DNA of 64,000 nucleotides from Apostichopus japonicus (taxonomy: Eukaryota > Echinodermata > Holothuroidea > Aspidochirotida > Stichopodidae). The translations under genes were made by a program, and so were the position numbers. The stretch covers positions 2,623,501 to 2,687,500 of the forward strand of contig NC_092570.1 of the NCBI RefSeq assembly GCF_037975245.1, in the 5' to 3' direction. This document shows positions 3,279 through 63,175 of this stretch, one piece after another. The stretch's first letter is position 1. Every line of letters starts with the position of its first letter. A model generated the notes under the pieces. It did not search any database, was not told the DNA's origin, and was given only the letters and a program-made list of their open reading frames with translations.

Positions 3279-23392
<20,114 letters not shown>

Positions 23393-24310: not shown

Positions 24311-24316
24311 AATAAA
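24311..24316 (+). terminator. Candidate poly(A) signal for the glucosidase gene
   Basis: An AATAAA hexamer about 0.9 kb after the stop codon at 23392. A second AATAAA lies at 24686-24691. Transcript 3' ends are needed to choose between them. Confidence 0.35.
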
Positions 24317-24349
24317 AAGTAATTGAGAAATGGAAAACTAACTGGGATA

Positions 24350-24505
24350 TTTAGACAATGGAAAAGAGACAATAGAAAAAGACAATGCAAAAGAAACAAT
24401 GCAAAAGAGCGATGCAAAAAATGTCAGTGGGAAAGTGACATGAAAAAGGGACAATGAAAAAGAGACAATGAAAAAAGAGACAATGCAAAATAGACAATGC
24501 AGGAA
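24350..24505. repeat. Degenerate purine-rich short tandem repeat
   Basis: Repeated GACAATG followed by AAAAGA-type words at roughly 12-15 base spacing, about ten imperfect units. Frames read on the minus strand give hydrophobic low-complexity peptides and are not genes. Confidence 0.8.
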
Positions 24506-26959: not shown

Positions 26960-27374
26960 GGTATCAGCGTCACTTTCTCCTTCCTCTCAAAAATCCTTCC
27001 CTCTCTATTCACCAGGTCAGATTTCTTTGCTACAGTTTATGGGCAGTTCTAGTATTAATTCGTTCCATGGCTTCTGTCCAAATAGTTGGCGCTATGTATA
27101 TTTGATTACTATCAACCTTGTATACAGACATACGTGTCTTCTCTCCGGCCGCTAGCTTCCAACCAATAATTTCTGTGCTTCCAACTCATATACTCCCACT
27201 TGTGGTTGAACAGTAATAAGTTATGTGGTACTGATATGCGTGTAACGTTAGTTATGTACGTACGATCCTAGATCATCCATTTTCTCTACTACAGACGTAG
27301 CCAGGCTACTACGAATCGAAACAGTATTCAAGCTTCACATTACCTACCATTTGGAATTTCCCTCTCGCTCCAAG

Positions 27375-30300
27375 ATGGTATGTCCTTTCTTTATTAACTG
27401 GAATCCGTCCTAAAATGTAACGGCAAGATGTCAATAAAACAGGACGTCAATACTTTATGACACTTGGTTGGAGATCGAGTTTGCATTAATTTACATTATG
27501 TCATTAGGCTAGCAAGACCAACATAGTACTGTAGGCTATCCGGACTTAGGCCTAGCCAATAACAATCAGTCGGGTTTTGCTCAATGATATAGTCCAATCT
27601 TTCATTTCACCAAAGCCTAGACTACCTGATTTCTACCTGAAATTGATCTAGCCTAGACCAAAACAAAAAGTCACTAGCCCTAGGCTAGGCCAAACAATAA
27701 CATTTAAAACCTTTTAGCATATTGACTAATATCACGCATGAATTAAAGTTGACTGTATAGCCTATTCTAAGTCTAGTAAATGGGTGCTGCGGTTGAAAGT
27801 ATGCCAATGTATTGATATTAGAAAATTACTGTTTGTTTTTCAGCTTCAGTTCATGTTACTATTTAGTCGTCAGGGCAAGCTTCGTCTGCAAAAGTGGTAC
27901 GTGCCTTACCAAGACAAACTTAAGAAGAAAGTTACAAGAGAGCTTATCTCTACTGTTTTAACCAGAAAACCAAAAATGTGCAATTTCTTAGAATGGAGGG
28001 ACTTGAAAGTAGTTTACAAAAGGTAAGTCATTCCAGATTATATTCAGTGTCCTGAGATATATGTACTGTAGTGAGAGAAGACATGGTCCACGTTTCCTTG
28101 ATCCTTCAACCATTTCATTTCCGTTACTCTAAAATTTTGGATTCCAAAAGTTTGGAGTCATTCAAACCTAGTAAACCATTTGCTGGCACATTCACCTGCC
28201 CATACTAACGATGAGACATTAAAAAAGGCCGTGGCTATTCTTACGACTAGTCGTAACAATTATTTATAAACTATTCTTACGACAAAGGCGAATTCAAGCG
28301 CAGTAAAGTAAATAAAGCAACTGCGCATGTAGTAGGGGTAACCCTAACTTTAACCCTAAACCCCAATCCTAACCCTAACACTAACCCTAACCGGAAATTA
28401 TTGTTACTCCTGGTCGTAAAAAATAGTTCTCCTGTCATAAAAATAGCAACTGCACATGCGTAGTTGGAAATTATTCTTACGAACAGTCGTAAGAATAGCC
28501 ACTTTGATTAAAAAACCCTTGTCATGGTCCTACTTATGAGGAAACTTGATTTTCATTGTGTGAATACATAATGTTTAACACTGTCATTCTGACAGCTGAA
28601 GGAACCTTGATGTCTGGTTAAAGGTGTTATTTGTGGGTGTTTGGAATATTCAGATTGGTCTTTTAAAAAAAAATTGTTATGGTAATAAATATATGGGAAC
28701 TTGACAGATAGGACAAATTCTATAAGTAACCATATCGGTTTTGTCATTGAAACAACATTCCTGGCCGTAAATTTGTCTGTGATAGATTCTGTCTTGGGTA
28801 TCAGCATGCTTCCATGCCATCTCACCTGTTTGCTTTTAATTTGATTTTTATTTGATTTTTAGTTTTGAAATATGTAACCAGTCAAAAATGAATTTACCTA
28901 GGGACTGTTCTTTGCTTAGATATTGCATGACGCTGTTCTTTTGTGTTAATCATTTTTTCTTACCTTTGATTGACCCGCTAGGTATGCCAGTTTGTATTTC
29001 TGCTGTGCCATTGAAGAATCAGACAATGAGCTCCTCACGCTGGAGATAATTCACCGATATGTCGAACTTCTCGATAAATATTTTGGTAGTGTAAGTATGA
29101 AGTTTGTTAATTAGAATTCACAATCATATCTAGGCTTCTTCAATGGTGCCATTTTGCTGCTCTATAGAGGAACTTTTCCCAGTCTTCACCTCTACTCTGT
29201 CTAACCCCCCCCCCAAAAAAAAAAAAAACCCTCCTGCCTTCCTCATGATCATTTTCTCATGTCTCCCTCTAAAGGTATGTGAACTGGACATTATTTTCAA
29301 CTTTGAAAAAGCCTACTTTATGTTGGATGAACTCATGATCGGAGGAGAAGTACAAGAGACGAGTAAGAAGAATGTACTAAAGGCCATTCAGGCACAGGAC
29401 CTATTACAAGAGGTAAGAGAACCTAGGTCACTGATGAGGTCAAATTGACATAGCTTTGTATTACTGCTATGTGTGCTAAGTTGTTTTGTAGTCAGGCATA
29501 TTTCTCACTATCTAATATACCCAAATTGATTAAAAACTGTCTTTTGATATAGACCCCAATAATTGCTTATTCTGATCATAATTCAAATTTCATTTGAATT
29601 TAATTGAATTGTGCTCCAGGCTACCAATGTTCCTATTGACTACATTTTCCTAGAAATGTGAGAAAATGTACATTTATGTACTACATAAATAGTTTAAAGG
29701 ATTGGTACTAAGAGGAAGATTAAAAAAAAAAGAAGTTGTTTAGGTCGAACTTTGTATTGGAATTTTGTATCAAATCTTTGGATGACATGTTCCCATTAAT
29801 TGTAATGGTGTGCATTTGAAGGTATGTTTAGTGCGTAACTATTTTTCGAAAAGAGACTTGCAACTTTATGAAGCATATGAGGAAGTTTGTTCTCAAGTCA
29901 AGAATAAAAAAGTATATGCCCCAGGATCTTACTTTATTGAACATATCTTTGGTGAATCATTACAAGTATTCTTTGATGTAAGCTCTTTGAATAGAAAATA
30001 AACCCCTCCTAAATACTTTCCTTCTACTCCATAATACGTGGAGCCCTGCTCCCCAAAAGCAAATGGGGTCAATGTGAGCAAACTGGAGAGGGTAGAAATG
30101 TGTGAAAGTTGGGGGAGGGGGGAGTGTGTGTAGGGGAATGGGTGGGATAGGTAGGTGAAGAAAGGATAGAAGGTGATGGGTAGATAAAAAAATTGACAAA
30201 AATATAGACAAAAAATAGACAAAAGTATTGACAAAAATAGGCAAAAATATTGATTTACTGTAAACTACTTCGTCAAGTTTCGCCGTTACAGGCTACATTT

Positions 30301-36300: not shown

Positions 36301-39300
36301 TTCTACTACTTTGGGTGAGCAATGCATGAATTACTTCCTAATAACTGCCTCTGGGTCTATTTTAGAAGTCTTTCCTCAAGAAAGATTTTCTTCTTCTTGC
36401 AATTTAAATGTGAAATAAAGAACCGAAGGTTATGTAGGTAAGGTGTATTCAGTGTTAACCTACAGTACAATAATATTTAGTTTACTGTAGAAACATACAG
36501 TAGCACAACACTGTACATTTAGGCTACACATATCTAGTGAATAGCAGTATATAATGTACTCTACATAACATAGATTGCATAGCAGGGCAACATTTGATTT
36601 TTTTTCCTTTTCTGGTTGTCCCCGGGACAACCAGGTCGTACATTTTGGTTACCTGATCAGCAACTTTGGTTGTCCGAATAAATGTACCAAAATATCCAAG
36701 AATGACTAATACGTACACTTTAAGAGAGATGTGTAGGTTTGGTGAATAGCACGTCGGCTCTGGAGCCAGTAAAACTCACATTCAGGTGGATAATAGTCCT
36801 ACAGTACCACTATTTTTTTTATTTTTTCATTTCAACAATCTCCAAGTTAATAGAGGGTGATACCAATTTATTCATTTAACCTATTTGGTGGTATTTGGTA
36901 ACAATGCAAACTGAATTTGATGTAATCAACTACTGTAGTTGTCCTTTTGGCAACCTCTAAAAGCTGATTTTGGTCGTCCCGAACAGGAATTTGGTCGTCT
37001 GGGGACGAACATTAAAAATTTGCCCTGCACAGTGTGGTGCAATATGTACTGTAGTATATGGTAAATAATGCAGTGTGTATTACCAGCTTTGCTAGATGGT
37101 ACAGTGAGATTCATTACAGCTCATAGAACTTTTACTACAGTACATGTATGCAATACAGATTTACTGTACACCAGGGGTGGGCAACCTTTTTGAACGAATG
37201 GGCCAGATATAAGGGGTGGAAAATTGACTAGGCCGCACCTAACCAACGACCTGCTGTTAATTTCAAACCTTTGATTCCGAGGACTTTTAAGCAATAGGTT
37301 TTGTGTACCTAATCTGTATTCACAAAAACATAATGTGAATACAGTACAGTTGATGATAATGAGGATAATAGGCCTACATGACAGCATCATTAGTGCCGAT
37401 AATTTCTAAGCAGCTAGCTCGTTTTTTGTGATGATGTAAAATAGATTGATTTTTTTTCATTTTCTTGAGACATCTCATGGGCCGCAAAAAAAATCACTGG
37501 TGGGCCGCATGTGGCCCGTGGCCGTAGGTTGCTCATCCCTGCTGTACACTGAAGTTTTTACTGTGCTGCAAAACATAGTAAAATGTGTATAGTTTACTCA
37601 CAGTAATGATTGTGCAGTACAGTAAGCACTATGCATTCACTGTACTGCGCATGTTTAATATGAGTTCATGGTATGCTATCAATGACACAAATCATTTTGT
37701 GTTGAAATTAGAATGGTACATCAATGACTTTAACTTTAATGCATAAACAATAGCAACAGTTTGCATATGTGTAAGTTTGTGCTAGTCTTGCCATGCAACC
37801 TAGCTAAGTTGGGTCATTGTTCAAAGTTTGATTGCAGTTGGCTAAAGTATGAAAACACCCACCTGGCTAGAATAAGCTAGCAACTCCAGAAAAGTTGTTA
37901 CGAATGTGTTGTGTTCGCACATAGTTAATATGTCAGTGGTTGGTAACTGTATTAGACGCATCTAACTGACCACGAATGAGATTTGCTGAGTATGAAATAA
38001 TTGCCGAGCAGAGTTGCATATATATACAGTAGGAATGGCGTTTAATTAATTTCAACAAGGAATTTAAAAAGAAAAGGGGGAATGCAATATATATATATAT
38101 TTATATTCTTTGAACAGTTGATGCTTTTGTGTTGTAGTGGGGAAAAATCTTCAGATTTATTGCATATTTTGCTTTTTTAAATTGAAGTTCAGTATTAAAC
38201 GGTATTAATCAATAATCAGGTTTGAATTCACCTTCTCAGCTTAAAATGCACCACTCTGTAGTTAATGCACTTGTAATACCACGACTCACTTTTAACCATT
38301 CTCTCTTTTCACGGCTGTGACCACAGACCTATATGTCCTGATATCTAGATCAATGGTCTGCAACCATTTTAGACCAAGAACCAGGCAATTTTTTTCATTC
38401 CTTGCCGGAGGCAAAAGGAATCTATAAGATGGTGATGGCATGTGTGTGTGTGTGTATGACACTTGATTGTACAGTAAGCGCAGTAACTCAATAAGTTAAT
38501 GGTGGATTAACTTCATACTTGGTATGTGGATCCATCTTATTGAGTACAAGAACCCTATTGTTCTCTTTGAAGTACAATGGTCATTTGTTCACTTTTGAAA
38601 CAATAACTCAAAAAGTACGTCTTTGTTGAACTTCATACATGGTATGCAGATTCAGCTCATTGAGTACAAGAACCCTATTGAAATTGGTGGAGGTCAAAGG
38701 TCATTTGCGGTCTAAATTTAAATGAAAGTCTGATAATTTTGTAAACAGGATAACTTGACATCATTTACAGTATGGGGGGGGGGGGGTGTTCAGTTTATCC
38801 ATGGAATTGTTTCATCTTTCTCTCATTCTTAAACTTGTCCTTGGAAATTAAATAAATTTGCACAATAAATTGTGGGTGGAAGGAAGGAAGGTTGAAGGGG
38901 GGGGGGGGGGGAGGGTAACACAAAATAAGATATTTTCTAACAGAGGAATTTGTGAAATACTTTTTTTGAATGATTAAATGTGCTCTCAGGGAGAATTTTG
39001 TCCCCCTGTCCAAAGAAAAGAACGACAAGATTTTGAAACTATTTGAAACTGATGATTTTATCATTTGGGTGGTGAGAGAGGGTGTTGGTGAGATTGTTTT
39101 CTTATTTTTCATGGGGTGGCGGAGGGGTGGTGGGAGCGAGACTGGGGGTGTCCGGCTTGCAATTATATAGATCTCTAACTCGGGGTCACCATGGAGAAAG
39201 ATGTACCCCTCAAAATAACAACTTGCAGATTCTAAATCCTCTCCCATTTTCTTCTCTCTCTCTTGCTCCTCTCATAGGAAGTGGAAGAAATGCGTAGCGC

Positions 39301-40433
39301 TCTTGAAGAATTGGGTCTTGTCTAGTAGAACGATCTCTGTCCACTGTCCACTTATGAACAAATATTTTCATTGTCCTTATTTCACAGTTTATAAAGCAAG
39401 AGTTACTCATATATGCTAACAATCACATTGCATTAACCCAGGCGCAATTAACATCATTTCTTTTTTTTCTCTCTAATTTCTGACTAAAAGGGCAAGGACA
39501 GAAAGCTACACCCCCCTCCCCCCTTTCGTCCTCCCCTTTCGTCCTCCCCTCTCTCAGCAAAAATAGAAGAAAAAGAAGAAGTTTTAATTCCCATTTTAAA
39601 CAGCATGTTTGCAATATTACACAGCTTATCATATGTTAACATTTATTATTTTGGTTGCACTCATATTCGAGCGTCGTCGCACATTGGCTAAGGCGTTGGA
39701 CTTGTGATCCAAGGATTGCTGGTTCGATTCCTGCCTAGCTCATTACGTTGTGTCCTTGGGCAAGATGCTTTATCTCAATTGCCCCAGTCCACCCAGGGGT
39801 TAAATGGGTACCTGTGAGGTAACTTGTCATTGGGCGCAGTATATAACTGCTGCCGACTGGAGGGATTGTCTCTGTGACATATCATTGACCAGGGGTAATA
39901 TAATGTCTGTAAAGCGCTTTGAGATCTATCGCTGGTATAAAGCGCTATATAAAAAGCAAATATTATTTTATAATTATTCAAAGACTGGAACATAGGATTA
40001 CTAACCAATAAAATTCTGTTCTTCGCAGCTAGTCTGTAGGGCACCTGCTCTTTATGACGTAACACTAGTCTTATCAAAGTCAAGACTTTTGACCTGGAGT
40101 CATTCTCTGCTGTTCGAAGCAGTTGACAGTGCTGTAGGCTCGGTGGGCTTGGTATGATTAAAATGTACTCTAACATTTGTTGTTTTTTGTTGATTTTTAA
40201 AGATTTATGGCAAGAAAATAAAGTTACAGAAGAAAATGAGGTACTGAAGCAAATGGCTCAACATACAGTATATACAGTAGTATTAAAACCATTAACAGAC
40301 CATTGAAACACACTGCTTTCAGTCCAAACTTGATTTGTCGTAATAGCTTCAATTCTTGAAGAATGACCCTTTAAACAAGTGACGCTCAACAACACAAGTG
40401 ACTGGACTATTAAGTCTAGTACACAGACCATTC

Positions 40434-40466
<33 letters not shown>

Positions 40467-42278: not shown

Positions 42279-42338
<60 letters not shown>

Positions 42339-45097: not shown

Positions 45098-45128
<31 letters not shown>

Positions 45129-45282: not shown

Positions 45283-47264
45283 TACCCAGAAGACTATGTA
45301 AAGAAAATTCCAGATACCCCCACGGAGTTGTGACTTATACACAAGACGTATATAAGGATTCCCTCTGAACTGGATTCAAAACCACTCTAATGTTCATCAT
45401 AGCATACAAAATTTAACATTAATGTGGCCATTAAGTAACTATGATTTTTCTTTTCTGTTAGAAACAGCATCCATAAGAAAATTAGGTTTGAAGTTACATC
45501 ACCGTGTACGAAACGTGCTGCCCTGACTTCATCCTGCTTTCATCGGTCATACAAGAGCAGAACGCTTGTACAGAAGTTATTGTAGCAATTTGAAAATATG
45601 CTTAATTTATCCCTTCAACAGCCCAAGAGAGCTCTCATATAGTAGAAACAAAATTTATATTTTCTCCAATGTCTACATCAGTTTCTACATCTAAATATAT
45701 TTATGTCACATTAATTTGGTGAAGAAATTATTAGAACATTTTGTGATAACGATTTGAGGTATTTCAGACAAATTTGCGAAGATCAAATGCAATGAACTGT
45801 ACATAATATCATTTCAAGTGGGTTTTGGGGAAATCTTCTCAGAGCTCTCAGCATCTCAACACATTCTCCAGAAGCAGTTTATTACTTCCATGTTCAACTA
45901 ATATCCTGTTAATATGTTGTTTACTTTTGAGGAGGGCGAGTTAATGCTGTGTTTAAACTGAAGTCTAAGGTTTGTTCATATGAAACAGCCGTGGGCAATT
46001 AAGCACTACATTATTATGGAACAGTGGGTTATAAAGAAATTAAGAATGGAAAGAAATTGCTTCAATGCACTATGTATCTTGGAAGTGCACCTCTAAAGCT
46101 GTGTAGATTATTCTATGCAACAGTACGTTATATGCGAGTTAACCAAACTGGTTTCTTTACATGATAAAAAACACCAGGTGAAACCCACAACATCAGAACA
46201 GCTGATGTTGTGAAGCGAGTCGGACATTTGGGCGGGATTGTCGAGAATGTTTATCTGATACCTATATCAATGTGGAGCATTAAATTTGAACAAATCATCA
46301 AATTCCTTTTGTATTTCTCATAGACTGATACTTTATGTTACCATGTCATTCATATGTGAGATGTGTTTAATATAACAGTATGCAATCACTGATATGTATG
46401 TTGCCAATTTCTGGACATAATACAATAGAGTATAGAACATATTGAACCATCAGCTTCTCACCAACATGTTAATGTCATCTTTTAGAAGTGTTATCACCGC
46501 TAATCCAAAAGCTACTGGAGATCAACATATTTTATGCCCCCCTTAGCAATTAATAACACATTTGAATATGCACAATAGAGCATAAATATATACAAGCCTA
46601 GAATTTTACAATTTTAACCACTTGCTGAAAAAATGCATGTGCATTGAAAAGGTAGTGGCTAAAATCAAATTCCGACTTGGCATTTTGCAAGAACTGAATT
46701 ATTAAAAAAAGCAACTTTGTGTTATACTGGCAGAATAAATGCCAGTGCCCTTTTCTTTCTCCTGACAAATAGCAAAATGCCCTGACATTCAACCCAGTTA
46801 ATAGCCTGAGTTTCAAGGACTGATATATAGTTCCAATAGTGAACCAAGAAGTTAGATCAAGTTGTACATAGACTCGTGCATAGGCCTACAGTGTTTTTCT
46901 GGGCAATTTGAACATTGTGTTTGTTCAGAATATTTAACAATAGGCAGTTTTCATCTTCCTCACCTCCATCCTTCTGTTCTTAAATTGCAAGAATTTGTGA
47001 ATTGTAACTTTACAAAATGATCTAACCAATGAAAAGAATATTTGTGAAATATTTGTACCTTCCAGCATCCCTTTGTCAACTTGCTCAATTATGTCTATTT
47101 CTTGCTATTATATGATGTGGTCTACAGGACATTAATTTCAATCATCGATATCACAAATGATGAATATTTTTTTATTTGACTTAGTTTCCCCATCATAAAC
47201 ACAAACTAACGGATCCCTATCACTACAATCGTTTTTGGTACTATGTATGTATGTTTGTATGTAT

Positions 47265-47470
47265 TTTAGATCCTCCTGCAAGCAGGAACTCGCGAAGAAG
47301 CCATCATTGGCTTATCAAAGCCGCAAGCTGACCGAAGTCAGTCTCTTAGATTCATATTTAACGTCCATGATTATGAATTGTCGACAACTCTGTAACTGGA
47401 CGACATACATACTCGAACTTGGGACCTTATGATTGAAAGGCACCTACTGTATAATAAATTTGTAGCATTG
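47265..47470 (-). repeat. Possible SINE in reverse orientation
   Basis: Read on the minus strand, about 47450-47400 gives a tRNA-like stretch with GGTCCCAAGTTCGAGTATG (B-box-like GTTCGAGTA). The other end holds GCCGCAAGCTGACCGAAGTC on the plus strand. Frames through it show no protein similarity that I recognise. Confidence 0.45.
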
Positions 47471-48682
47471 TGTAGTAAATTATCACACGATTATGACAAT
47501 GTAATTTTCCCCAAAATTTGTTGGGCCATTGAGGGGATGGAAACTTCTACTAAACCAAAACAAAGGTGTCTCGTTCTTTGTTATTGTTGTGGTCAAGATG
47601 ACAGCATGCGCCCGATTACTCTCTTCATATCAAACTAAACGATAATTCCACCCCAATTATAAAATCCTGGATCCTTGCGTCACCATTATGAATATTCATT
47701 AAGTGTCATCATATGCTTCACAATCTGATTCATTCCAAAGTACAGTTATAAAATAAAACCTTTTTTTTTTAATGAAACTTACATCGTTTGTTTTGTTTTA
47801 CTTTGACCAACTTAATAGTGGAAAGAAATTTAACATGCTGTGATCTTCAAAGCTATTCCCAGACATTGTGGACTATTAGAACAGACCGTTAAATATCGTA
47901 GCATAAATGACTACTGTATGAGAGGCAATAAAATGCTTGGAAACATTTGAGCATGGGCGACCATACTTGAATTAGCATATTTGTGGGTACACCAATGACC
48001 AATAAGCATCAATAACTCATAAATGAAAGTGACTGGACAGTCAAGTCTAGCATGTGGAACATTTGGTCAGCTCCGGTTGGCTTCCAAGTAAAATGCTTGG
48101 AATGCAAGTTTATGAGTTATATGTGTGTGCATTGAGTATGGGCAATGTTTATAGTTTACATATTAATCATACCTCAGCCCTGGGGTCCCATCCCCCACTT
48201 CACCATCAACAAGCATTGACTTCACATGCCAAATTTGTCACTTTCCAAAAGCCCTAGAGCATAGAAGTTTTTCTTCTTGCATGTCCCACACCTTTTGTAT
48301 GGGCCTACCATGGCACTAATAAATTGACCTACTATAACCTGTTAGATTTTGAGCTAGAAGAGATGAAAGTTCAGCATAGTGCTCCCCAAACCATACATGT
48401 GTTAGCTCTAGTTGCAGAAACTACGTTTCACCAATGAATTTCTAAAATACCTTAAATCACCTTCAATTTTCATGAGTTAAAGGCCATCAGTAGTTTATTT
48501 CATCTTCCGACATACCAAGCATAAAAGCCTAATGATAACTGAGAATTTGCCAAAATAGAATCACTTCAGTTGGTCCATTTAGGGCCTTTCCCTGAAAAAT
48601 GGTTGACAATTTGGGCGGAAAACAACTCCTCAAACCCATCCATCATCCATCAATGTGATAGTGGTAGTTGTGATAATACTGA

Positions 48683-48850
48683 GGGTGTCCGGTCAAATGA
48701 ATTAGTCAACAGACTTAGATCGTAGGTTTGAGTCCTGGCCAGATTATTGTGTTCTGTCTATGGCATTTCAAGGAACTTTATCTCGATTGGCTCTCTTGAC
48801 CAAGTTGTATAAATGGGAACCTTACAACAGTTCCTACCCTAAGTTGTATC
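48683..48850 (+). repeat. Diverged relative of the SINE at 39671
   Basis: A tRNA-like head with decayed B box (GGTTTGAGTCC, about 48725) is followed by TTGTGTTCT and CTTTATCTCGATTG, which align with TTGTGTCCT and TTTATCTCAATTG in the copy at 39671. The 3' tail is not recognisable. It lies between the two convergent genes. Confidence 0.6.
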
Positions 48851-49266
48851 CCATCTTCAACAAAAATTACAAACAAAAATGATAGTAAGGCAAAGGACCT
48901 CTGTTGACATTATGTAAATTTTAATCCCAACAAATATTACATAATTATGCAAATTTTCCTCTACCATTTCTGTTACGTTGCACTTCTTGTTATTAATTGA
49001 TTTTTTAATAGTTCAGAAGCAGATTTGTCAATCCATCTAAATAGAGCCAGCTCAACTGCCCTGTCCAAGGGATGTATTAAAAAAAAAATAATAATAATAC
49101 AATCCAACTCGAATGTTATCCTGACACAGATGGGGTTAAAACAAGGTGTAAAAAGGAGGCAGGATGTCCAAAGGAAAATAAAATCTGGAGAGAAAGAGTC
49201 GGCATGCAGTTTAACCAGACACTTTGCCTCTCTTTCAAGTCACAAACTAAAACAGCTCCAATTCTT

Positions 49267-52200
49267 TCATTGGTCAGGTTTCACCTCTTTAGGAGCTGTC
49301 ATCCCTTCCTTCTCCTCCGCCCTCTTGTTGAGACGGGCAATCTCCATCTCTACGATGTCCAGCTTTTCCTTCTCTTCTTCACTGCTATCAGAATCCTCCG
49401 ATGCTGCCTCATTCCCACTTGCAGATGAGGATGATGATGATGACGAGGATGATGATGATGTCCGAGGTGACTCTCCTTGATCTCGTGCTTCATCTTCCGA
49501 AGTTTCTCCGTCTGAACGCGGCAGTGGCTTTTCGACATCTACGGCACGTTTCCCTTCTGCCTCAGCATCCACAGATTCCTTGGGAATTGATACAGAGTCA
49601 CTCTTTACAGTAATCCCTTCCGGTTCGACGTGCCCGGTGTCATTTTGGGATCCAGTTTTGTCTTCATTCCTGAGAGAAGATTTAGACTTTTCTGTTGGAG
49701 TGTCAACCCCAACTTTTTGTTTTTTACTTTTTCGTCCTCGGTGGTGTGACTTGTTCTTTGATTTTGATTTAGCTCTTGACCTTCCCTTGGACCCAGAACT
49801 GCTCCCTGATGAATGTGACCTACTTTTTGATCTCGATCTACTTCTTGATCGCCTGTTTCTCCTCCGCTCATCTCTAATTCTTGATCTGGACCTACTCATG
49901 GAATCTGTCTTTCTAGGAGTTGGTGACCTTGTCTTTGAACGTGACCTCCTCCTCGGAGGGGACTTACTCCTGGAATTGGACCTCCAAGAAGGAGACCTAC
50001 TCTTTGAACGGGATCCTTTGTGTGAAGGTGAGTTCCTCTTGGATTCCGACCAACTCCGAGTAGGTGACCTGCTTTTTGAACGTGACCTTCGTTGGGAAGG
50101 TGACCTACTCTTTGAACGTGGCCTAGATGTCCTTCTTGACCTGGACCTTCTGCTGGAATGTGACTTTACTCTAACTTCAGATCTCTGTTTAGACCTCTTC
50201 CTCTCAGTTGATCTACTTCTGGATCTTGACCTGCTTCTGGTGTGGGAGTGATTCCTCCTTTCTGACCCCAAACGGTGCCTCCACTGATGGAGTGGGTAAG
50301 AACCCTGTCGCCACCTTCTTTCACTGAAACTCTTGAAATCAGACCTACCATGCCTTCCTCTGTGGGTCCTCCCAGTTTCATCTTTGGGATCTTTGAACAC
50401 ATGAAGGTAGTTACAGTTTTTACCTTTGGGGCATGTACCGAACTGGAACAGACCTGAAAGAAGAAGAGGAGAATGAAAACGTGGAGAAGAGCAAGATTCG
50501 AGGAAAGTACTTTCTAAGTTCCAAGAAGATGATTGTGTGGTAAATGAAACTGAGCAGAATTCATGTTATTTTGAGCGATAGTAAGTATCTCTAGCTTGAA
50601 ATATGTACCAGAAATATTCTTGGATATTACAATATTTCAGAGCCGAAATATATATGTTGACAACGTAAGCCTGCAAAGTGAGGTCAGGAGACTAATTTTT
50701 CATGGCATGCTAGCTTGTAGAGACACCCTATAAATGCTGTCCACATAACCTTATAAGCAATTAAAGACATGTAATATGTTATTTTTTAGGGGTGCTTTTA
50801 CAATATGTGATATAATTCTTTTCAAAATAACAGACTAAACTATGTGCAGGTAGAACTTCCATGTTCATTTTTTTATTATCTTCCATATTGCAATTTGCAA
50901 TTTCACTTTTCTTAGTTCAAATTGCAAAAATAGTACCGATCAAGTTACATCCCAAATCTTGCATACATTAGGTGCATATCTTTGTGAGTCTTTGCCTTTC
51001 GGTTTGATATAATGAAACTTTCACATAGTACATAATGATAACCCTTCTTGATGTACCTACATACTACAAACAGAGAAACATTCCAGGCTCAAATCCTGAT
51101 GGGATATTCTAGTCAGAATGCAAGGTGCGCCTCCAGGTGTCGAACTAATATCTTCTTCCCAAGTGTAGACAGTCTCCCAAGGCTAGACAGAGTTGCTTCA
51201 TAGAGACTTTATGCTTGCCAGATGTCATGCTTAAATTGAAAACTATCTTAGCAACTAGACAAGCTATACAGAAGGGATTAGTATACCTATGACTTCCTTT
51301 TTATATTTGCTGTTTTTAATTTTTCTCAACTTTTAGACTTCAAGCAATTCCCTTGAGTACTGGGCTGTTTGACCATCATTGCTGTTGTTTTGCGAGGCTT
51401 ATCGATTCGCTAATTGAATCTTTCTGATGGCGATGTAAAGTCCGTACATATTTGCTATCATCTGCTTGATATACTCACCACATATAGCAGCCCTCCAGTC
51501 ATCCAATGCTACATATTCGCAGGAGAGAGGCTTTCCGGCGTAAAACCTGCCGTTGAAAGTTTCCACTGCTTTAGTTCCATGCTCCTCTTTCTGATACTGG
51601 ACATAAACGTTGCCTCTCAGATGCTGCTCCCAGTTACAACATGCCTTTCAAAAGATAATAAAACAGGACAGAAACTGTCAAACTGGATCTCAAGTAAGAC
51701 AGTAATAGCAGGTACATTATCAATAAAGATACAAACTTGAAATGCTAGCCTGTGAGTATCATAGAGAGCTTTTCCTGTAGAGAATGTTTTTATGTATAGC
51801 GAAATATCCTGAGAGGGTTTGAACAAATACAAATGCATGTGAATTTCCAAGGCTAGAGGTTGATTCAGCATTCAATAAAAGAAGGGTGCGACTCCCCCCC
51901 CCCCACCTCATCCTCCTGGATGGGTGCCTGTGGGCTACATTTCTGACAGGGTGCCATAAAATGGACAGGTACTGAGTATTATTATGTTAACATTCTGAAT
52001 GCATCAGTACTTACATATAGCCTATTTTACATACTACTTGCAACAAATCACTCTATAAATTTTATAGGTAGCCCTGGTTAAACCACTGGAATTTGGAGAG
52101 TAGTACTAGCTACCTGACTGAATTTGGAGGAAATTATATTTCATAGTCCAGTAAAAATGCACATCTGCATGAAACAACACTTGACAGCAGTAACATTCTT

Positions 52201-55200
52201 GAAAGCTTAGAAAGTATATTGATGAATCTCCAGCATCCCCTTCCCCCTCTCCCCACCCACCGAAACAGGGAGGTTACATGAAAATGAAAATCTCACCATT
52301 CAACCTCCCCCCCTCCCCCACCCCACCTCTCCACAGCCTGGTCAACAACAGATATATTACCTTCATCACAACTACTCTGCCAATCTTCTCAAACTCGGGT
52401 AAAGTGTCCGAATAAAATTCTCTGAAATCTGCTTCAGCAGTTTCCTGATCGTATTCCAGACTAATGTCCGTGTCGTATTCATCCCGAAAGCTCTGCTCCA
52501 TGGTAAAGTTACTATACATGCCCTTGAGAAGCACCGTCCTAGAAATCCCCGGGTCAGGATGATTGCGAGAACACCTTAAGGAGGAGAAGAAGAAGAAATG
52601 AACAGACCTAACAAGTAATGACATCTGCAAGTATTAATCAATACCAGATACTGTATGAAGGGTACTGCAGGGTTGTCTGCCAGATAGACAGTTTGATTGG
52701 GAGGGGGTGGGCATGGGGGGGGGGGCATTGGGGGGCATTGGGGGAGGGTGGAGCTTTAGCCAGATATAAAAGAAGGCAGCACAATTCACATGCTGAGTGT
52801 CAAATCCAAATGAGGGGCAGCTTTTAGGTAAAAACTATCCAAAAAAAAACTAGTAAAAACTTTGAAAAATAAAATGGCCTAAAAGTTGTATTTGCAGATG
52901 TTTGGCATCAGTTTTTTAACTTTTCAAGCAGACAAAATGTTTGCCTTACTTCCCCACGAGTATATTGTATATTCTATGTGCCAACGGCAGTCTTTCTTGA
53001 GAACATATTAACAGGGTTTGTCTTCTAAGAAAATCAAGGGTGTGCTGAAAAATCGCACTCCTCAAGAAATTTAACGGTGCTGCAGGTGTGATGAAAATAG
53101 CACTCCTTAGTACAGTTTAGGCTGAGCAAGATTAAGGCAAATTCAAGCATGTTGTGAGCTGATGAATGGGAAAAAAAAAAAAAACTAGAGCACCAATGGT
53201 GCAGAAGCTCATACCTTTTCGAGCTCAAAAATGTAGGGCACACAAAACTTTATGGCCCTCCAAATTTCAGGCCATTTTTCAGATTCCACCAATTTTGGGC
53301 CCATGAGGCCAAACAATTTAGGTTCAAAGACAAATTTATACCCCTAGTTCAAAACGGCGATAACCCCCCCCCCCCCCCCTCCGTTAGCAGAATCTTGGCC
53401 ACACCACTGGCTATAATTCCTATTTTCCTCCTTTAAGTCCTATTTTACCCACTCTCTCAAACAATACCACTGACCTACCCTATTAATCTTTCTCCCCTCT
53501 ACCTGAGCAGAAATAACTTCACAAGCACTCCTTCCCAAAATTTTGGCTGGCTGCCTACATACCTCAGGCTCAAAGACTTTTAAGAATTGGCAAGTGCTGA
53601 TTGGCTATAGGGCTCTCATGCTTACAGTTCAACAGTTAATAACAACTCCCAATCCTGCTTTAATTCCACTAACAGTCTCTGCAGAGCTTAACCACAAATG
53701 TAAACAAACACTGCAGAGACTGGTAGATAAATTAAAGGAGCTTAGGAAAAATGTGAAGGCTCAGATTTTTTTAAACAACAGGGATTAATTGTAAGTAATT
53801 AACTTTTGACCCAAAATTTTTAGGCATCACCTTATTCATACACAATCCAACAATCATCAGTTCAACTTTGAATATGATCCATCGAAATCTTGAGGAGATT
53901 GAGATATTTGAAAATATTACAAAGAATGACCCCCGATGACCCCCTAAATGACATTTGACCTCAATTTTCCGAACACCACTCGTAACCCTCATCCCGAGGA
54001 ACGTTGTGACCAAGTTTCATTATAACTGGCCATACACTGTATGAACAGAAGCAATCTGAAAATATAGGGATGCGGCCGGGGCCACAAAAGACCCCTAGTT
54101 GATCTTTGATCTCAAATTCAGGAACACCCTGAAGATAAAACTTCCATAGTACTTTTGTGACAAACCCTCAACATTGTACCATGGAATCTGTAGGAGAAGA
54201 AGCAGTTTGCGTATTTCCACAAAATGGCCCATTACGGCCCACAGGTGACCTTTGACCCCAAATTTCGGACCATCTCTGATGGCCCTATACCCAATGGTCC
54301 TTGTGTCCAAGTTTCATGAAATTCCATTGAACACTGTGCGAGTGGGAGCGGTTTTACCAATTGTTGACGGATAGAGTGATAGAGTGATAGATGGCGCACT
54401 GTAACAATAGCTCACACCAGCATGCTGGTATGAGCTAAAAAATCTTGTATTTAATACTTGCAGGGGCTTCGATGGTGTATAGGGTGTAATGGTGTATGGG
54501 GTGTGATGGTGTATAGGGTGTGATGGTGTATAGGTGTTTAGTGTGTATATGGTGGGACAGTGTATAGGGTGGGATGGTGTATAGGGGTGATGGTGTATAG
54601 GGGTGATGGTGTATAGGTGTGATGGTGTATAGTTGTGATGGCCTGACATGGCCTGTGTCTTAACTTCTCTGTTGTATCTTGATTTCCTAGCTCTACTTTG
54701 TCTCATCAATAAGGCTTTCAATCACCTTCCTATAATACTTTACACCAAGTTACCTCCATACATTGCAGAAGAGGGGGGGGGGAATTACATAGACTGGTAT
54801 TTGTTTCCCTACCCCATCCCCACCCCCACATGGGGAAAAATATAATAGGTTGATACACTCTGCCTATGAAGGCAATGGATTAATTGCTGAATGAATGGTA
54901 GGAAAAGTATAAAACAGCAAAATGTGTTCCATTAATAACAGAGCACCAGATGGCTCACCTTTCACCAAACCTGCAAGCACCAGTTTTCTTGAAGAAGCTA
55001 CAAGTTTCTGCTTTCCTAGTTCCAGGCACAACTTTGGGGGCATCTGGGTTACGCCAAGGTTGCTGTAAATAAATAACATGAGAATTTTGGTTATTTTTCT
55101 TCTTCCAAAAATTGCTATCAAAACCAATACCTGAAGACTCAAGTATCTCTCAGGAATTTCCCCCAAAATATTCAGAAATGGTTTACAGCTTCCATGATTT

Positions 55201-58200
55201 TGATTTTCAAACTTTCTTATTTATTAACAAATTGGAGCTACAGCTGTATTCGTAGCCCAATGGGACCAAAATTCTTTTTTTATTTGAACTCTAGATAAGT
55301 ACCGTAACCTCAATCTTTCATTGTGTTGCAATTTCACTATTTTGTTTTTTCTTCGCATATTGCTACGCTATATTGGTTTGAGCTATTCCCTCAATATAAT
55401 GATAGTAATACTGCCAAAGAGCCAATAATTTACCATATGCTTTGTGTCTCTCTGTGAACCAAAAATATGAATACATTTTTGGAGACAAATGGACCACATT
55501 GTGCATTTACATACATCTAGACAAATATTAGTATGAAAGCCTGGACTTAAAAAGAGTTAACCACATTACCACAAAATAACCAACCTTACCAAAATAACCA
55601 CAAATTGTACATATCAAGATCCTTGTGTAAATCATAAAGCTAGATTTTGTCTTATATTGGCAACAATGTAGTGATATGATGATGTCCAACCATTAAAGGA
55701 AAAATGACTTTAGTCAGCTAAAACCACACACCGAACTATGAATCAGATGAAACGAATACATCAAAAATTGTGGGACAGAGAATTGTCTAATGCTGAAACT
55801 AAATACTAATTAGCAACTAAAGAAACAGGTAGGTGACTCTTACTTCTATCTCTCTACATCCATCTCTATGGTTGGATAAGGTGGGAGGGAGGTGGGGGGG
55901 GGTTAAGGTTTAGGGGGAAGGGAGGGTGATTACCCATTTGTGTGAAATCAAACTATGTATTGGCAGAGTGACACAACATTACAATGTGACGTAAAACAGC
56001 AGTCTTGATGAAGAAGGCAGGGAAAAAAAGGAGAATGTGAGAGAAAATAGGATATTACCTCTCCATTCTTGTTGCCTTTATCCAGGTACTGTAGAACTCC
56101 CTGGGATGAGTAGAAGACATTGATGGGTTACAAAGTGAAAAAATCTGGGGGAATAGACTTGTCAAGATTGAATATTTTAATTCAGAGAAAAGCAACATAT
56201 GAATAGAAAACTAGAAGAAGTCAATGTGTCAATGTTCTCTCCAAAATAGTGTTTTTATGGGAGAACCCTGGTTTGCTGGTGAACTTTTTAAGAAATATAC
56301 ACATTTCTTTTCAGTTCTGCAAGCTTTGAAACTAGCCCAAGTTGTTGTTTTTTGGTATTTTTAATAGCAATGCTTTAGCCTGATGCTTTTGCCATGAATA
56401 GCGAAGACCAAATTCAACCTTGTCAGATAATTTTGTTGCATATTGTGCTACCAGAGGAATTTTCAAAGATATTTCATTTTTCATGGTGTACCTCCATTCT
56501 GCTACCAAACAAACATGAGAGTCTATCCTATAAACTGCAGTTTCATAGTCGACGTATAATTTACGAGTTTAACACCATGAATGTGAGTACAAGTGAAAAT
56601 GCTCTTGGCATGAGTACAAGGCTCTAAGTGTGAGTAACGTGGAGTACATAATTTGCACTAGCCTCTACACTACTATTCAATATGCCCTGAGTGTGAGCTC
56701 AAATCCTATGAGGTACTTAATACAGGTAACTATACTATGATACAAGTATGAATACAGATTCAATGCAAGTATGCCATTCCTAATGCACAGTACGTAAGTG
56801 TATAACGTGTAGATGCGGTACAACTTGGACAGTCAAATATTCTTCAACGTTGTTAATAAAAAGTTGCATAATAATAATGATAAACAAAAAATGTAGAGCA
56901 TCTAAGCACCTCCATTTTACCAAAATTTCTCAAAGGCAGACAGACAGTCCTCCCCTGAATGATTTAGCATCTTAGCCCACCATACCCCCCCCCCCCCCCA
57001 AGTTAGCAACTTAGTGTCATGCCGCTGTTGCTAGGGTTTGAACATGATAAACCTACTTATCATATCAACATTATCAGCAACTTCTAAGGAAGACTACAAC
57101 AAACTTAACAACGACAGTAGTTTCTGCTCAAACATAAGTTGATGCCTCCTGGGAGGAAGTTAAAGCACATGATGCTATCAAGTAATTAAGAAGTTAAAGC
57201 ATGATGCTATCAACTAATTAAGCAAGAGCAGAATTTCTATGTTAACAAAAAAGATACAGCTGAATCCATCTCTGTAGGGACTTATGTTCATTTTCATCTG
57301 GAATCGTGGTTTTGAATATTAAGGAAACAATGAACGGTAAAAAAACAAAACATGAACAACAAAAAGTAAATGCTAATTATTCATGAGAAATGACCACAGG
57401 AACATTCATTACATTAAATAGCATTCTAATAGAGAACTTATGAGTGTGCTTGGGAGATGGGGGAGGTTGGGAGGGGGAGGTCATTTGAAGATAAGGAGAC
57501 AAAAAACTTGATAAGCAAATTTAACTTTAGAAACAATCCATGAACGAGAAAGTGCAAACCAGTTATGCCAAGAAATGTGTTACAAAGACCAAATTAATTG
57601 ACTCCTAATTAATCAACTTCCATACCTTCTTTTCCTTTCACTCTTTGCCCCAAAAATAGTGAATATATTAACAAGCTGAAAAGGGAGAATTTGTGAACAC
57701 ATTTCAATGTTACCATGCTATTCAACTGTTAAGGAAATAACAGATTGACATTCAATGGATGACTTTTGCATTTTGGGCTTAAAATTTCGATGTTGATAAC
57801 ATCAGAGTTCCCAAAAAACTAAAAACTATTGCTATTATAAATAAATTGGTTTGATGTGGATATAGTCCAGTCTTTGTCCAAATCACCTCCAACTGTTGTT
57901 GTTTTTCATCCTTTTTGGTTTTTTCCTTCTTCAGTTTCTCTTGTTCTTTCCTCTGTTCTTCCTCCCACTCAGCTTGAATTCTTTTCTAAAAATTAAAAAA
58001 ATCAAAACAGAAAAAAACTATAATGCATATTTAACAGTCTGTGCTTTTCCCTACACCTAATGTTTATGGTATATATATGTTTTCATATGAAATTATGGAA
58101 TGAATTGATATTAATATGTATGAACGATTTAATATGGAAGAAATTAACCAATTAATCCATAAATAAATACTGTACAGAAGTCATGAAGAGAGCACATTAA

Positions 58201-61200
58201 CTGTTCCTTGAATGTGATTCAAATTGCTCTAATAACTGGAAACATCAACAAAAACTTAACGTGAAGATCTCTACAACACAACAGTCGTGTTTAAATTTTG
58301 CGAATGGTCGGCTGTTGGTCTTTGCCTAAAAGAGGATTATGGACTGTATTGAAGAATAACAGCTTTTATTTAACAATATTTTTTAATGCAGCAAGTTTGC
58401 AAATTCTTTGAGATAACTTGCTTGTGTGACATAGGTGGACATTATAAGACTGTGTGAAATGTTGAAAAGAAAAGTCCAATAAGCAATACTTTCCTTGAAT
58501 TTCGAGAAGACTAATCTGCATCGAGATTAACATGATTTTTGGACAGAAACACATTTCAAATTCTCAGTGTCAATGCCAACTTGACTTACTATGCTTGAGA
58601 CATTTGGAAATGCACTCATTCCTTAATATAACCAACATTTGTCACAAATTGAAATGGAAGTAAAAGTGTATCCTCATTAGACTATCACTTGGGGGGGGGG
58701 GGGGGTGGGAAGAGGGACTAGCTTCATTTTATTTTAAGTTGTGCATTACCCTCTCCTCTTCCTCTTTCTTTTTCAGCTTCTCTTCCTTTTGTCTCTGTCT
58801 CTGAAATTCCTCCTGGGCTTGCCTCTCCCTCTCCAGCCACATCTCATGTTGTCTCTTCCTGTGAAAGTCAAAAAAGAAAAGTCAAGTTATCAAGCTGTGG
58901 TCGGTTTCTAACCAAACTACAAGTTTGGTTACTTTGAGATGGTACAATCGAATAGCTACTCAGCACTTCTTCTTATTACTCAGCACATCTTCAGCACTTC
59001 TCAGCACTCCTTCTCAGCACTTCTCTCCTACAGCACTTCTCTCCTTCTCTTCTTCCCAGCACTTCTGCCCAGTACTTCTCCCACAACTTCTCCCAGCACT
59101 TCTCTCCTACTCAGCACTTCTTCTACTCAGCACTTCCTCTTATCGCGATCATGCTAAGAATATCTCAGAAGAGATTACCTCTTTACATTTGTGTTCTTTC
59201 CTAGTCTTCTATTTACTGCATATACTCACAGAAGGGTATCCCACACTATCCAATTTTACTATCAGAATTTTACAGTGAACATTGAAGGGTCAAAACCCCA
59301 TATTGTCAGTGCGTCACAAAGCTGGACCTACTGTATAGTATCTTATGGAATGTCCCTGACACATTTTAACAGTTCATCAAACATAATATGGGGTTTGAGT
59401 AATAATAAATACAACCACTATGTACATGAACTGCAGATGGAGACTTAGATATACTGTATTTGTATCCAGCCTACTCACTTTTCCTGTTCCATCAACAAAT
59501 TTAGTTGTCTTTCCCGAGCCTCCTCTCCTTCCAATCTTCTTGGTGTCAGCTTCTCTTCTGAAATTTACAAGAGAGAGGTGGAGAGAGAGGGAGGGAGAAC
59601 GAGAGTTAAACATGACGAATAAACTGCTCATCAACTGCGTTGCAAGAATAGAAACTTCAGGGTTGCTAACTTTTATACATTCCAGTCTTTTACACAAAAA
59701 GTTTTTCTAATTCAGATAGAAAAATTGATAATGCCACAAAATTGTTCATTATATTTGCAAAGTACAACCTCCTACCAAGCATCTAACATATATGTCCCTT
59801 GCAAAGCTGCAAAAAAAACCCACAAATGATAATCTTAATTTGGTGCTATACAAAACAAAAAAACAAAACTTGTCAAAATTCTTGGGAAAACTAAATTATA
59901 AACAAACATCAACACTGAGCAGTCCTACAAAAACTTCCAGTAATAAAAAGAAAAGAATAAGAATAAATTGGCTTTTATATAGCACTGCAAAAACATCTAA
60001 AATACACAATGTGCTTGCAGAACCTAGCTACTCTGGTCAAGCAATTATTAGCATATAGTTCCAATAAGTACTGCGTTAGTCACATTATTACTATGGACTG
60101 GATAAAACCTATATATTGTAATCTTTATATGAATTATTGCACTAGTAATTGAGAAGTGAATCCAAAGTGGAATATGTCCAGTTAATTTTAGAAACGTTAC
60201 AGAAACCAGTTGTGCAAAGTATTCTAATGTAGTTTTTTTTTGCAAGCAGGTCAACACATGATACAGGGCAACTGCTGTGTATTCAAATAGATCTTCAAAT
60301 AGAACTCCAAATAGATCAATCAAATGGCTTCTTGGGTAACAATACAATACACATGGAAGGTTATTTAAGGGTGTGAAGACTCGCGCAAAAAGAAACGTCT
60401 AATGCTGGTAATCTGACCTAGTTTGGAATGAGGTGTAACTGAAGTGTTAGACACATGGGCGGCGATCCGTACTTCCGAGTGGGGGGGATATGACCTTGTT
60501 GACTATCTAAGCGTAGCGCCACCATGAGTTGGCGCGAAGCGTACAAGAAAATCTTGGGATTTACAAACCCTCTAGATGGCCGGAAACGGCACTTCCCGAG
60601 GTTTCCAAGCGGCATATACCCAACTTTAAAATAGGGATTTCATGTCCGAAATATCTCATAATCAGGATCCAAAAATACTTTTTTTTTTAAATTTCGGGTG
60701 ATATTTTGGGAAAATTGCCCCTGTCAATCTTGTTTCAGGCGCTAGGTTAGAATGTTCGAGAGCTCTTTATATTATTCGATGAAGAAAATGGCCTCATGCA
60801 GGCTATTATAGGCCTATACACATGCAATACACAATTACACATAGTTACATTCCTAGGTACCGATTGCTAGGGCATCCAGGTGAAACGTACGCGTATTAAC
60901 AGGGGCGTCGGAAGCTATTTGGGATTGGTACGGAAGATCAGAGTGTGGCCATCTACCATAATTATCGGGGGGGTGGGGGACGTCTGGAAGGTCAAACTAC
61001 GCTACGCGCCACCATTGGTTGGCGCGTAGCGTAATGGAGAAAATTTTGAAAAAATGCCTCCCAGATTGCAGGAAATGGCACTTCCCGAGCTTTTCTTCTG
61101 TGCATTCTCCCTTGTCTGTTTTTGTACCCGATTAATCTTCTGAATCACATTTTGAAGTATTTTTTCATTTTGGTTCTTTATTTTTTCCCTTTTTTTCTTC

Positions 61201-63175
61201 TTAGTGCTACTTTTTTCTCCTTTTTTTTTGCGCCGTGAATATTGGTCCGGCGAACCGCTCCGACGCCCCTAATTAAGCATTACCCTGGTAACATGAGATT
61301 CTCAGCTGTTCGAGGGAACATGTACGTGTGTAGGCCTACTATAGGGCCTATATGAATACTATGAGGGTGCATATATGTACTATATCAATACCGTGGGCGC
61401 AATAATACATTTTGCTGTTATAGGGCCAATGAAGCCTACAGTCAACTATTCTTGCTTTATAATGACGGTTTATTTGAAAAGATCGCACTGCGTTTATGGT
61501 ATAGGTGAGAAATGAAGCTAAAAAGAGCCGTACATTCACGATGATGCATAAATGAAGGCATGAAAATATTCTTATTCCTGGCATTTGGTGGGGGGGATAT
61601 GGTGTATTACATCCCCTCCACCCATTTTCATGGGGGGGATATATCCCCCCCATCCCCCCCAGGATCGCCGCCCATGGTTAGACACAACCATCGATCCCAG
61701 AAAATACGCACACAGCTTGCTACTTTCGGTAATTGGACATTAGTGTTCAGTCAGTACATACAGCTGCGGTCAATACCCACAGCACAGTGTACAAACGATA
61801 CAGTGATGGACATTTCAGGTCCAGCTAAAGATAACAAGGTATCACGTTTAATTACTGTCTGCATTTTGTAGCGACAAGCAGAAAACTTCACTTGCAAGCA
61901 ATGGAAAGTTAACTTTTCAGAGCGCGGCACACGGTTTGGGGCGAGTCTTCAATGTCTTTAAAGGACAATTTGGCTCTCTCACATAATTTCAATGGCAACT
62001 ATGAGAAAGCAATTGGTTGCTCAATACACAGTGAAAAAAGCAGAATTCACAGGTGTTTCACTTCAGAGATGCAGGTCTTAGATCCTATGACCTTTCATAT
62101 GGTAAGGTTCATTGTTGAGGTTATTGTGCACTATTGCTATAAGGTATGACCTGTAGCTTACCTGTACTCCACACTTCTTGGCCTTGAATATATTACTGTA
62201 CCTTTAAAGTTTGTTTTGAGTCTTTGAAAAGTCCTGGCTCTCGGGCCCTACAACAAAAGGTTCTCATTTATTTAAGACAAAATAAACAATAATACAAACC
62301 ATTGTTTTTTTCAAATTGCTGTCTTAGGATTGCTGCTTGTTGCCTTTTTTTTCTTCTTTTCTCCTTCTTCAATAATTTTCTATGTTCAGCTCTGGTCTTA
62401 CACCTTGAAAATATAATCCAAACAAATTTTACCCAGTATATCTTACCTTCAAAGAGTCAATACTTTCCAAACATTTGACCACTTCATGAACATATGTGTT
62501 TCCTGGTTCAAAACAGGAGAGGAGTAATTTTATGGTGGTGTGCATGAAATCGATAATTAATAGGTTCAGGGTTGAACAATAAAGTAAAAATGCATTTCTG
62601 TTTAGTCTGAAAAGTCAATTTCATGATAATCAATTCCAACTTGCAAAACTTGACCAAACTGAATGCTTCCTGGCCCAAGCAGTATGCCTCAACTTCCCCA
62701 AACTTTTACTACAGCAAGGCAGTATGAATCATTGAATGTATGTTATTCTGCCTGATAGGCCTACCTATAATAGTTACCCTGTCACCCAGATCAGGCCATT
62801 ACAGCACAAATTCAGATATATAAGTTATTACTGTACATACGTTTGTCACTCTATCATTTTTTCCATATTATACCGTGCTTAAGAACTCTAGCCTAGAACA
62901 AACAACATGCAGTTATTCTGGTTTTAGGCCTCGTCTTAACTTAGGCTAGACCTGTTTCAGTGATTGTTAATGAAACTTGTAAAGCAAAGCCTACAGGCCT
63001 AGCCAACGTTAAGTTACAGTTAACCTAACCAACCGAGGCCTAAAGTAAACTTAGATTAGAATAGTTAGATCCTAAGTTGTGTCTAACTGTTATACCTAAG
63101 TGTTATGAAATTCAACACTGATATGGAAGCGTACCTGACATTGTGTCCCCCGCTCTGAACATTTTCGACATTCAT
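49267..63175 (-). CDS. ZRSR2: ZRSR2-like U2AF35-related splicing factor (Urp family), 10 exons
   Basis: U2AF35-related protein that recognises 3' splice sites and, in vertebrates, is required for minor (U12-type) intron splicing. Minus-strand exons in order: 63175-63135, 62403-62300, 59557-59479, 58858-58750, 57985-57887, 56100-56059, 55062-54959, 52574-52361, 51644-51479, 50453-49267. All have GT-AG borders; phases join to about 714 residues. Domains: charged coiled coil (about 15-150, rich in E, K, R and Q), CCCH zinc finger 1 (C179, C188, C194, H198), U2AF-homology RRM (about 200-312, with LRGNVYVQY and NGRFYAG), zinc finger 2 (C319, C327, C333, H337), then a long RS domain, a 12-serine run and an acidic tail ending EVKPDQ. 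Human ZRSR2 is about 482 residues, so the tail is much longer here. The ATG at 63175 is chosen because it opens the frame and the short exon joins exon 2 in phase. Donors of introns 2 (GTTTGT) and 5 (GTGATT) are weak. Confidence 0.95.
53185..54440. repeat. Dispersed non-coding repeat with GACCTTTGACC-type motifs
   Basis: Contains internal repeats of 'CTTTGATCTC' / 'GACCTTTGACCCC', 'CCAAGTTTCAT' and 'GATAGAGTGATAGA', with a palindromic right end (AGCTCACACCAGC, TGCTGGTATGAGCT) and a left end containing GCAGAAGCTCATACC. Words of this kind are typical of dispersed repeats in marine invertebrate genomes (general recollection). It lies in intron 7 of the ZRSR2-like gene. Frames through it are not recognisable proteins. 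Confidence 0.55.
54471..54640. repeat. GGTGTATAGG minisatellite
   Basis: About a dozen variable units of GATGGTGTATAGGG(G/T)T at 13-17 base spacing. Minus-strand reading gives repeating YTPSHPIHHH-type peptides, a low-complexity artefact. It directly follows the dispersed repeat at 53185-54440. Confidence 0.9.
58955..59145. repeat. CAGCACTTCT minisatellite
   Basis: At least ten copies of CAGCACTTCT spaced 10-25 bases apart with CTCCT and CTTCT fillers, in intron 3 of the ZRSR2-like gene. Frames on the plus strand are serine/leucine repeats and are not genes. Confidence 0.9.
59955..60050 (-). repeat. 3' tail fragment of the SINE family, inverted
   Basis: AATAAATTGGCTTTTATATA on the plus strand is the reverse complement of the tail GCTATATAAAAAGCAAATAT at about 39943-39962. 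No tRNA-like head was found beside it, as expected for a 5'-truncated insertion. Confidence 0.55.
60454..61676. mobile_element. hAT-like element inserted into copy C
   Basis: The ends CATGGGCGGCGATCC and GGATCGCCGCCCATG are perfect 15-base inverted repeats. The flanking 8-bp duplication GTTAGACA is exact (60446-60453 and 61677-61684). The element is 1223 bp without a transposase frame. It contains the GCGCCACCAT...TTGGCGCG core at about 60516 and another hAT-like element at 60900-61270. Confidence 0.92.
60900..61270. mobile_element. Second hAT-like element nested within 60454-61676
   Basis: The left end is CAGGGGCGTCGGAAGC and the right end GCTCCGACGCCCCT, inverted repeats with one indel. 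The flanks share only ATTAA, so the target duplication is imperfect. The inner region carries the same core as its host (GCGCCACCATTGGTTGGCGC near 61008). No coding frame. Confidence 0.75.

Follow-up and report, generated by a model that had tools for sequence, protein, structure and literature searches.

A convergent AP-1 sigma–ZRSR gene pair in the sea cucumber Apostichopus japonicus, probably kept from a deuterostome or earlier ancestor

In a 64,000-nt stretch of the Apostichopus japonicus genome (hereafter, the window; bases 2,623,501–2,687,500 of contig C10, NC_092570.1), a gene for the sigma subunit of the AP-1 clathrin adaptor lies on the plus strand next to a ZRSR2-type gene on the minus strand, and the two converge tail to tail. 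In window positions, which are used throughout, the sequence-derived model of the AP-1 sigma gene opens with the ATG at 27375 and its stop codon ends at 45282; the model of the ZRSR gene opens with the ATG at 63175 and its stop codon ends at 49267. The same arrangement, with about 4 kb between the stop codons and with feature ends at 27375 and 63175, had been put forward from an earlier inspection of the window (the original prediction); gene models and family matches agree with it, the distance measured from stop to stop is 3,984 bp, and both ends are start codons of the modelled genes. No second copy of either gene was recognised in the genome searched, a 671.6-Mb assembly of 35 contigs in which C10 accounts for 20.0 Mb. 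Human AP1S2 and ZRSR2 are presumably also neighbours, tail to tail, on Xp22. The best reading of this correspondence, and a probable one in our judgment, is that the pair was already adjacent in a deuterostome or earlier ancestor and that its order has been kept passively since.

The AP-1 sigma model has GT-AG introns with consistent phases and a spliced product of 158 residues. Clat_adaptor_s (PF01217) is the sole Pfam domain of the joined protein and covers residues 1–140 of the 158 at 200.8 bits (cut-off 22.5; expectation value [E] 1.2e-59). When the protein without its first four residues is used as the query, solved AP-1 sigma-1A is matched at E 5.1e-79, as compared with 3.9e-40 for solved AP-2 sigma, 2.8e-30 for AP-4 sigma, and 9.1e-30 for AP-3 sigma; identity is 84% over 157 residues to human AP1S2 and 47% over 135 residues to human AP2S1. 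These matches indicate that the predicted product is an AP-1 sigma chain, as the original prediction had proposed, and not an AP-2, AP-3, or AP-4 sigma chain. Like AP1S1, AP1S2, and AP1S3, it has the small-chain fold (as judged by profile), and it shares with solved sigma-1A the C-terminal SVLEE.GL tail, whereas the tail of solved AP1S3 diverges after LQE. Among the solved matches listed, which do not include AP1S2, AP1S1 scored higher than AP1S3. The least certain part of the model is exon 1 (phase 0), which was chosen by eye, on donor and nearness, as 1 of 19 ATG/GT candidates; under the stricter donor pattern GTRAG there was no candidate.

Across the genome, Clat_adaptor_s gave ten exon-level matches, three of which are in the window gene, three in an AP-2 sigma gene on contig C8, and four, weaker ones, on C4 and C5. 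Two of the weaker matches lie at a single locus (L007) that by eye resembles AP-3 sigma, and another of these places (L008) gave no match to human AP1S2 or AP2S1. The window gene is thus the only putative AP-1 sigma gene recognised in the genome, its nearest relative being the AP-2 sigma gene on C8. Where an invertebrate has just one AP1S, that gene should be the joint pro-orthologue of AP1S1, AP1S2, and AP1S3, and for this reason we do not equate the window gene specifically with AP1S2.

The ZRSR model consists of nine exons and one tentative exon (Table 1), with human ZRSR2 serving for comparison. Six exons (i.e., all except 1, 3, 5, and the tentative exon 6) match human ZRSR2 at E ≤ 0.00094, and the two halves of the RNA recognition motif (RRM) do so at E 5e-19 and 8e-17; the Pfam model RRM_1, found at residues 254–304, scores 17.1 bits, below its cut-off of 20.7. 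zf-CCCH exceeds its Pfam cut-off in two stretches. A motif-scored search for exon 6 gave no candidate, and the tentative exon listed, which has no homology score, is the only one that meets the splice-site criteria. The predicted protein has the CCCH–RRM/UHM–CCCH core of the ZRSR2 family and, in addition, the charged N-terminal extension (exons 2, 4, and 5) and the long arginine/serine (RS)-rich tail of ZRSR2, both of which are absent from or shorter in U2AF1. Fingers, RS tail, and exon matches all speak for the ZRSR2-like identity that the minus-strand gene had been given. When 343 residues of the protein were searched against the genome, eight of the nine matches were the window gene itself and the ninth, on C12, was U2AF1 (83% identity over 53 residues to human U2AF1), making the window gene the only predicted gene of its kind recognised in the genome, with U2AF1 as its nearest relative.

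These identities bear on the possibility that the wrong pair is being compared, i.e., that AP1S2 has its pro-orthologue in some gene other than the AP-1 sigma of the window, or that the ZRSR gene is a U2AF1 relative. The joint pro-orthology of a lone invertebrate AP1S to three vertebrate genes lends some substance to this; however, no rival AP-1 sigma was recognised, the C8 gene being AP-2 sigma, and the ZRSR2 layout of the minus-strand gene, together with the presence of a separate U2AF1 on C12, makes a mistaken comparison very improbable.

In the gap between the two stop codons, only short repeats are present, and searches for Pfam domains (six frames, E 0.1) and for Rfam families (gathering thresholds) both returned no match. 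As far as genes with a known domain in this gap are concerned, AP-1 sigma and ZRSR are immediately adjacent. Poly(A)-type hexamers of the two strands interleave in the gap, and overlapping 3′ untranslated regions are therefore possible; it should be noted that A+T-rich DNA commonly contains hexamers of this type. Overlap is not required, the first hexamers past the AP-1 sigma stop being at 46279, 46701, and 46734 on the plus strand and those past the ZRSR stop at 49009, 48925, and 48499 on the minus strand.

One might suppose that selection holds the two genes together, breakage being harmful because their 3′ ends converge, because termination is shared, or because an element inside one gene regulates the other. 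The close spacing and the interleaved hexamers are in keeping with this, as is the 15.8-kb last intron of AP-1 sigma, which, with its two candidate terminal exons facing ZRSR (see below), leaves room for regulatory elements. On the other hand, the first hexamers permit untranslated regions that do not meet, and neither gene is known as a developmental regulator. We regard selection on the pair as unlikely; nothing in the analysis so far supports a functional reason for the shared order or, more specifically, the overlapping 3′ regulation that the original prediction had raised as a cause. A link through minor-spliceosome introns was considered and rejected. ZRSR2 acts at U12-type 3′ splice sites; none of 14 introns (five in AP-1 sigma, including two with a common donor, and nine in ZRSR, including two that exist only if the tentative exon 6 does) fits simple U12 donor or branch patterns, and there is hence no sign that ZRSR acts specifically on AP-1 sigma through such introns.

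The original prediction had further held that human AP1S2 and ZRSR2 are adjacent and convergent on Xp22.2; of this, adjacency agrees with a gene list from another mammal. A selection study of the sheep X chromosome names CA5B, ZRSR2, AP1S2, and GRPR, in that order, within an interval of about half a megabase (PMC9126029); this is a list and not a map, and it is consistent with ZRSR2–AP1S2 adjacency, the same two gene families being side by side in sheep and in the window. The mouse neighbours given for Car5b are Zrsr2 and Siah1b (PMC11874400), and in some mammals the Y chromosome carries genes named AP1S2Y and ZRSR2Y (PMC6063916). In literature searches on both genes, or on ZRSR2 together with sea urchin, no report of the pair in an invertebrate was among the matches listed; one listed paper, on wallaby, combines AP1S2 and ZRSR2 with synteny, and no literature combining AP1S, ZRSR, and microsynteny was found. 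Gene neighbours conserved in this way form a well-known class, and ancient metazoan microsyntenic blocks were reportedly described by Irimia et al. in 2012. Such blocks, as treated in a more recent study (PMC8851819), resemble the present case in that short-range gene order is common to distant animals, and differ from it in being defined by at least three genes, where here there is only a pair. According to the same study, bilaterian-ancestor microsyntenies (blocks of at least three genes) are largely kept in ambulacrarians (PMC8851819), and this makes it plausible that the shared pair is an inheritance.

Several observations weigh against common descent of the arrangement. Vertebrates, in the same account, lost 84% of the bilaterian-ancestor blocks of at least three genes, and the vertebrate ancestor inherited 70 blocks, as compared with 110, 120, and 124 in shuffled genomes (PMC8851819); a match between a vertebrate and an echinoderm is, on these figures, not by itself strong proof. 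In a study of the ace2 region, ap1s2 is among the neighbours of ace2 in tetrapods and not in ray-finned fishes, rearrangement around ace2 is reported, and zrsr2 goes unmentioned in the passages on this region (PMC6278350). The comparison of gene order covers the window and mammals. Finally, neither CA5B nor GRPR is among the genes identified in the (partly annotated) flanks, and neither of two human Xp22 genes tested is on C10, taxilin being on C21 and PIGA on C23. Taxilin is a weak marker, given that it has paralogues on other human chromosomes.

The flanks were searched over 40 kb on each side for open frames of at least 70 residues, and seven of the frames listed were chosen by eye for Pfam; a family was assigned to five, the L019 match being below cut-off, and the other two had no match. 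Inside the window, Pfam was run on six frames over positions 1–15000 and on one frame over 15000–27299. Left of the pair are the plus-strand trefoil (P-type)/GH31 exons of a lysosomal alpha-glucosidase or maltase-like gene (∼3400–19070, the last piece below the Pfam cut-off) and an alpha/beta hydrolase gene (L022); right of it are ankyrin-repeat genes and amino-acid permease exons (L018 and L019). GH31, hydrolase, ankyrin, and permease genes thus stand where CA5B and GRPR are the outer neighbours in mammals. A larger block common to the window and human Xp22 was also considered, and it was set aside because both tested markers are elsewhere; since the flanks differ and taxilin and PIGA are on other chromosomes, the shared unit is, as far as tested, the pair alone.

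That the identified flanking genes differ on both sides, with both markers elsewhere, is what one would expect if AP1S and ZRSR had become neighbours independently in the echinoderm lineage and in vertebrates; in a comparison of whole genomes, moreover, chance alone should produce a few matching pairs, and the original prediction was free to single out AP1S–ZRSR. Against this, we estimate the chance of a named 3′ neighbour at ∼1/20,000 (20,000 genes assumed) and, once it is taken into account that vertebrates have three AP1S genes and that the orientation is fixed, at a value of the order of 1/10,000. The freedom to choose the best pair adds little to these values because the 64-kb window holds only a handful of gene pairs. 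Independent origin is, on balance, quite unlikely, and we infer descent from one ancestral arrangement with passive retention. Under descent with retention, the AP-1 sigma chain and the ZRSR2-type 3′ splice-site factor would be products of ordinary, unrelated housekeeping genes, a single AP1S–ZRSR pair would already have been neighbours in the deuterostome (or earlier) ancestor, and AP1S2 would be the AP1S copy that stayed beside ZRSR2 after the vertebrate genome duplications. The order would then persist chiefly through the accident that a gap of a few kilobases was never hit by a breakpoint, with no need for a joint function.

The last intron of AP-1 sigma contains a candidate exon (5a) that was not part of the original prediction. 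It has a strong acceptor, is in the same phase after LLQE as the last exon (5b), and was chosen, like 5b, by eye among 30 candidate rows (Table 1). The two exons would give the variant tails SALEELGLV (5a) and SVLEELGLT (5b) and differ at 6 of 15 residues, and five of their six LEELGL codons differ, all synonymously, which is the pattern that selection on two coding copies should leave. A tail motif written after both exons had been seen has no further occurrence in the six frames of the 64 kb and none in 200 dinucleotide shuffles of the intron. Poly(A)-type hexamers follow both exons. The two are most likely duplicated alternative terminal exons of AP-1 sigma; among the literature matches listed, no report of alternative last exons of AP1S2 was found. 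It is conceivable, and in our view hardly probable, that convergent ZRSR transcription into the last intron of AP-1 sigma sets the choice of terminal exon, that the level or activity of the splicing factor thereby sets the adaptor tail, and that the genes have stayed neighbours on account of this coupling from a time before the echinoderm–vertebrate split. Read-through of the exon 4 donor yields a sequence that also resembles an AP1S tail; being without transcript support, it was not counted as an isoform. The same last intron contains eight copies of a 43-bp tandem unit (88% matches) at 43875–44213.

Table 1. Modelled exons of the two genes and the interval between their stop codons, in window positions
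Feature	Position	Strand	Basis or remark
AP-1 sigma exon 1, coding part (ATG, then gtatgt donor)	27375..27377	+	candidate, picked by eye
AP-1 sigma exon 2	27844..28022	+	modelled
AP-1 sigma exon 3	28982..29090	+	modelled
AP-1 sigma exon 4 (end ...DLLQE, phase 0)	29275..29412	+	modelled
AP-1 sigma candidate alternative last exon 5a	39278..39325	+	by eye among 30 candidate rows
AP-1 sigma last exon 5b	45235..45282	+	by eye among 30 candidate rows
Stop-to-stop gap	45283..49266	.	3,984 bp; poly(A)-type hexamers on both strands
ZRSR last exon (second CCCH finger, RS-rich tail, stop)	49267..50453	-	
ZRSR exon 9 (second half of RRM, HLRGNVYVQY)	51479..51644	-	
ZRSR exon 8 (end of first CCCH finger, first half of RRM)	52361..52574	-	
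ZRSR exon 7 (first CCCH finger)	54959..55062	-	homology and Pfam
ZRSR candidate exon 6 (GVLQYLDKGNKNGE), 42 nt, tentative	56059..56100	-	splice-site criteria only
ZRSR exon 5 (charged N-terminal helix)	57887..57985	-	weak alone, E 0.11
ZRSR exon 4 (charged N-terminal helix)	58750..58858	-	E 8.5e-7
ZRSR exon 3	59479..59557	-	splice phase; own homology not significant (E 4.9)
ZRSR exon 2	62300..62403	-	E 0.00094 to human ZRSR2
ZRSR exon 1 with ATG at 63175	63135..63175	-	splice phase; without homology

Some further observations were made outside the pair. In the right flank, the amino-acid permease exons at L018:7230–7763 and L019:564–1052 (plus strand), ∼3.3 kb apart, look closely similar by eye (the family being taken from the L018 frame) and are likely a tandem duplication. 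To the left of AP-1 sigma, ten copies of a 37-bp tandem unit (93% matches) are found at 21903–22273. Elsewhere in the assembly, contig C35 (16,099 bp) is a mitochondrial genome, with a full COX1 match; its COX1 keeps the conserved residues of that protein when AAA is read as Asn and ATA as Ile, i.e., in the echinoderm/flatworm code (by eye). The gene order of C35 is COX1-ND4L-COX2-ATP6-COX3-ND3-ND4-ND5-(ND6 on the minus strand)-CYTB, with ND1 and ND2 on the COX1 strand (genes named by eye), and this order fits sea urchins and sea cucumbers, not sea stars or flatworms. Code and gene order together make an echinoderm the most likely source. Besides this complete mitochondrial contig, five COX1 matches lie at C29:14745–31219, possibly a mitochondrial concatemer, an insertion, or an unplaced mitochondrial contig.

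If the candidate duplicated last exon is real, variety in the sigma-1 tail may have arisen through exon duplication in this lineage and through gene duplication in vertebrates. If the AP1S–ZRSR pair is present in intermediate lineages, it would provide a clean and easily tracked case of gene order that outlasted both vertebrate genome duplications and a span of over half a billion years, and AP1S2 would be marked as the copy in the ancestral position.

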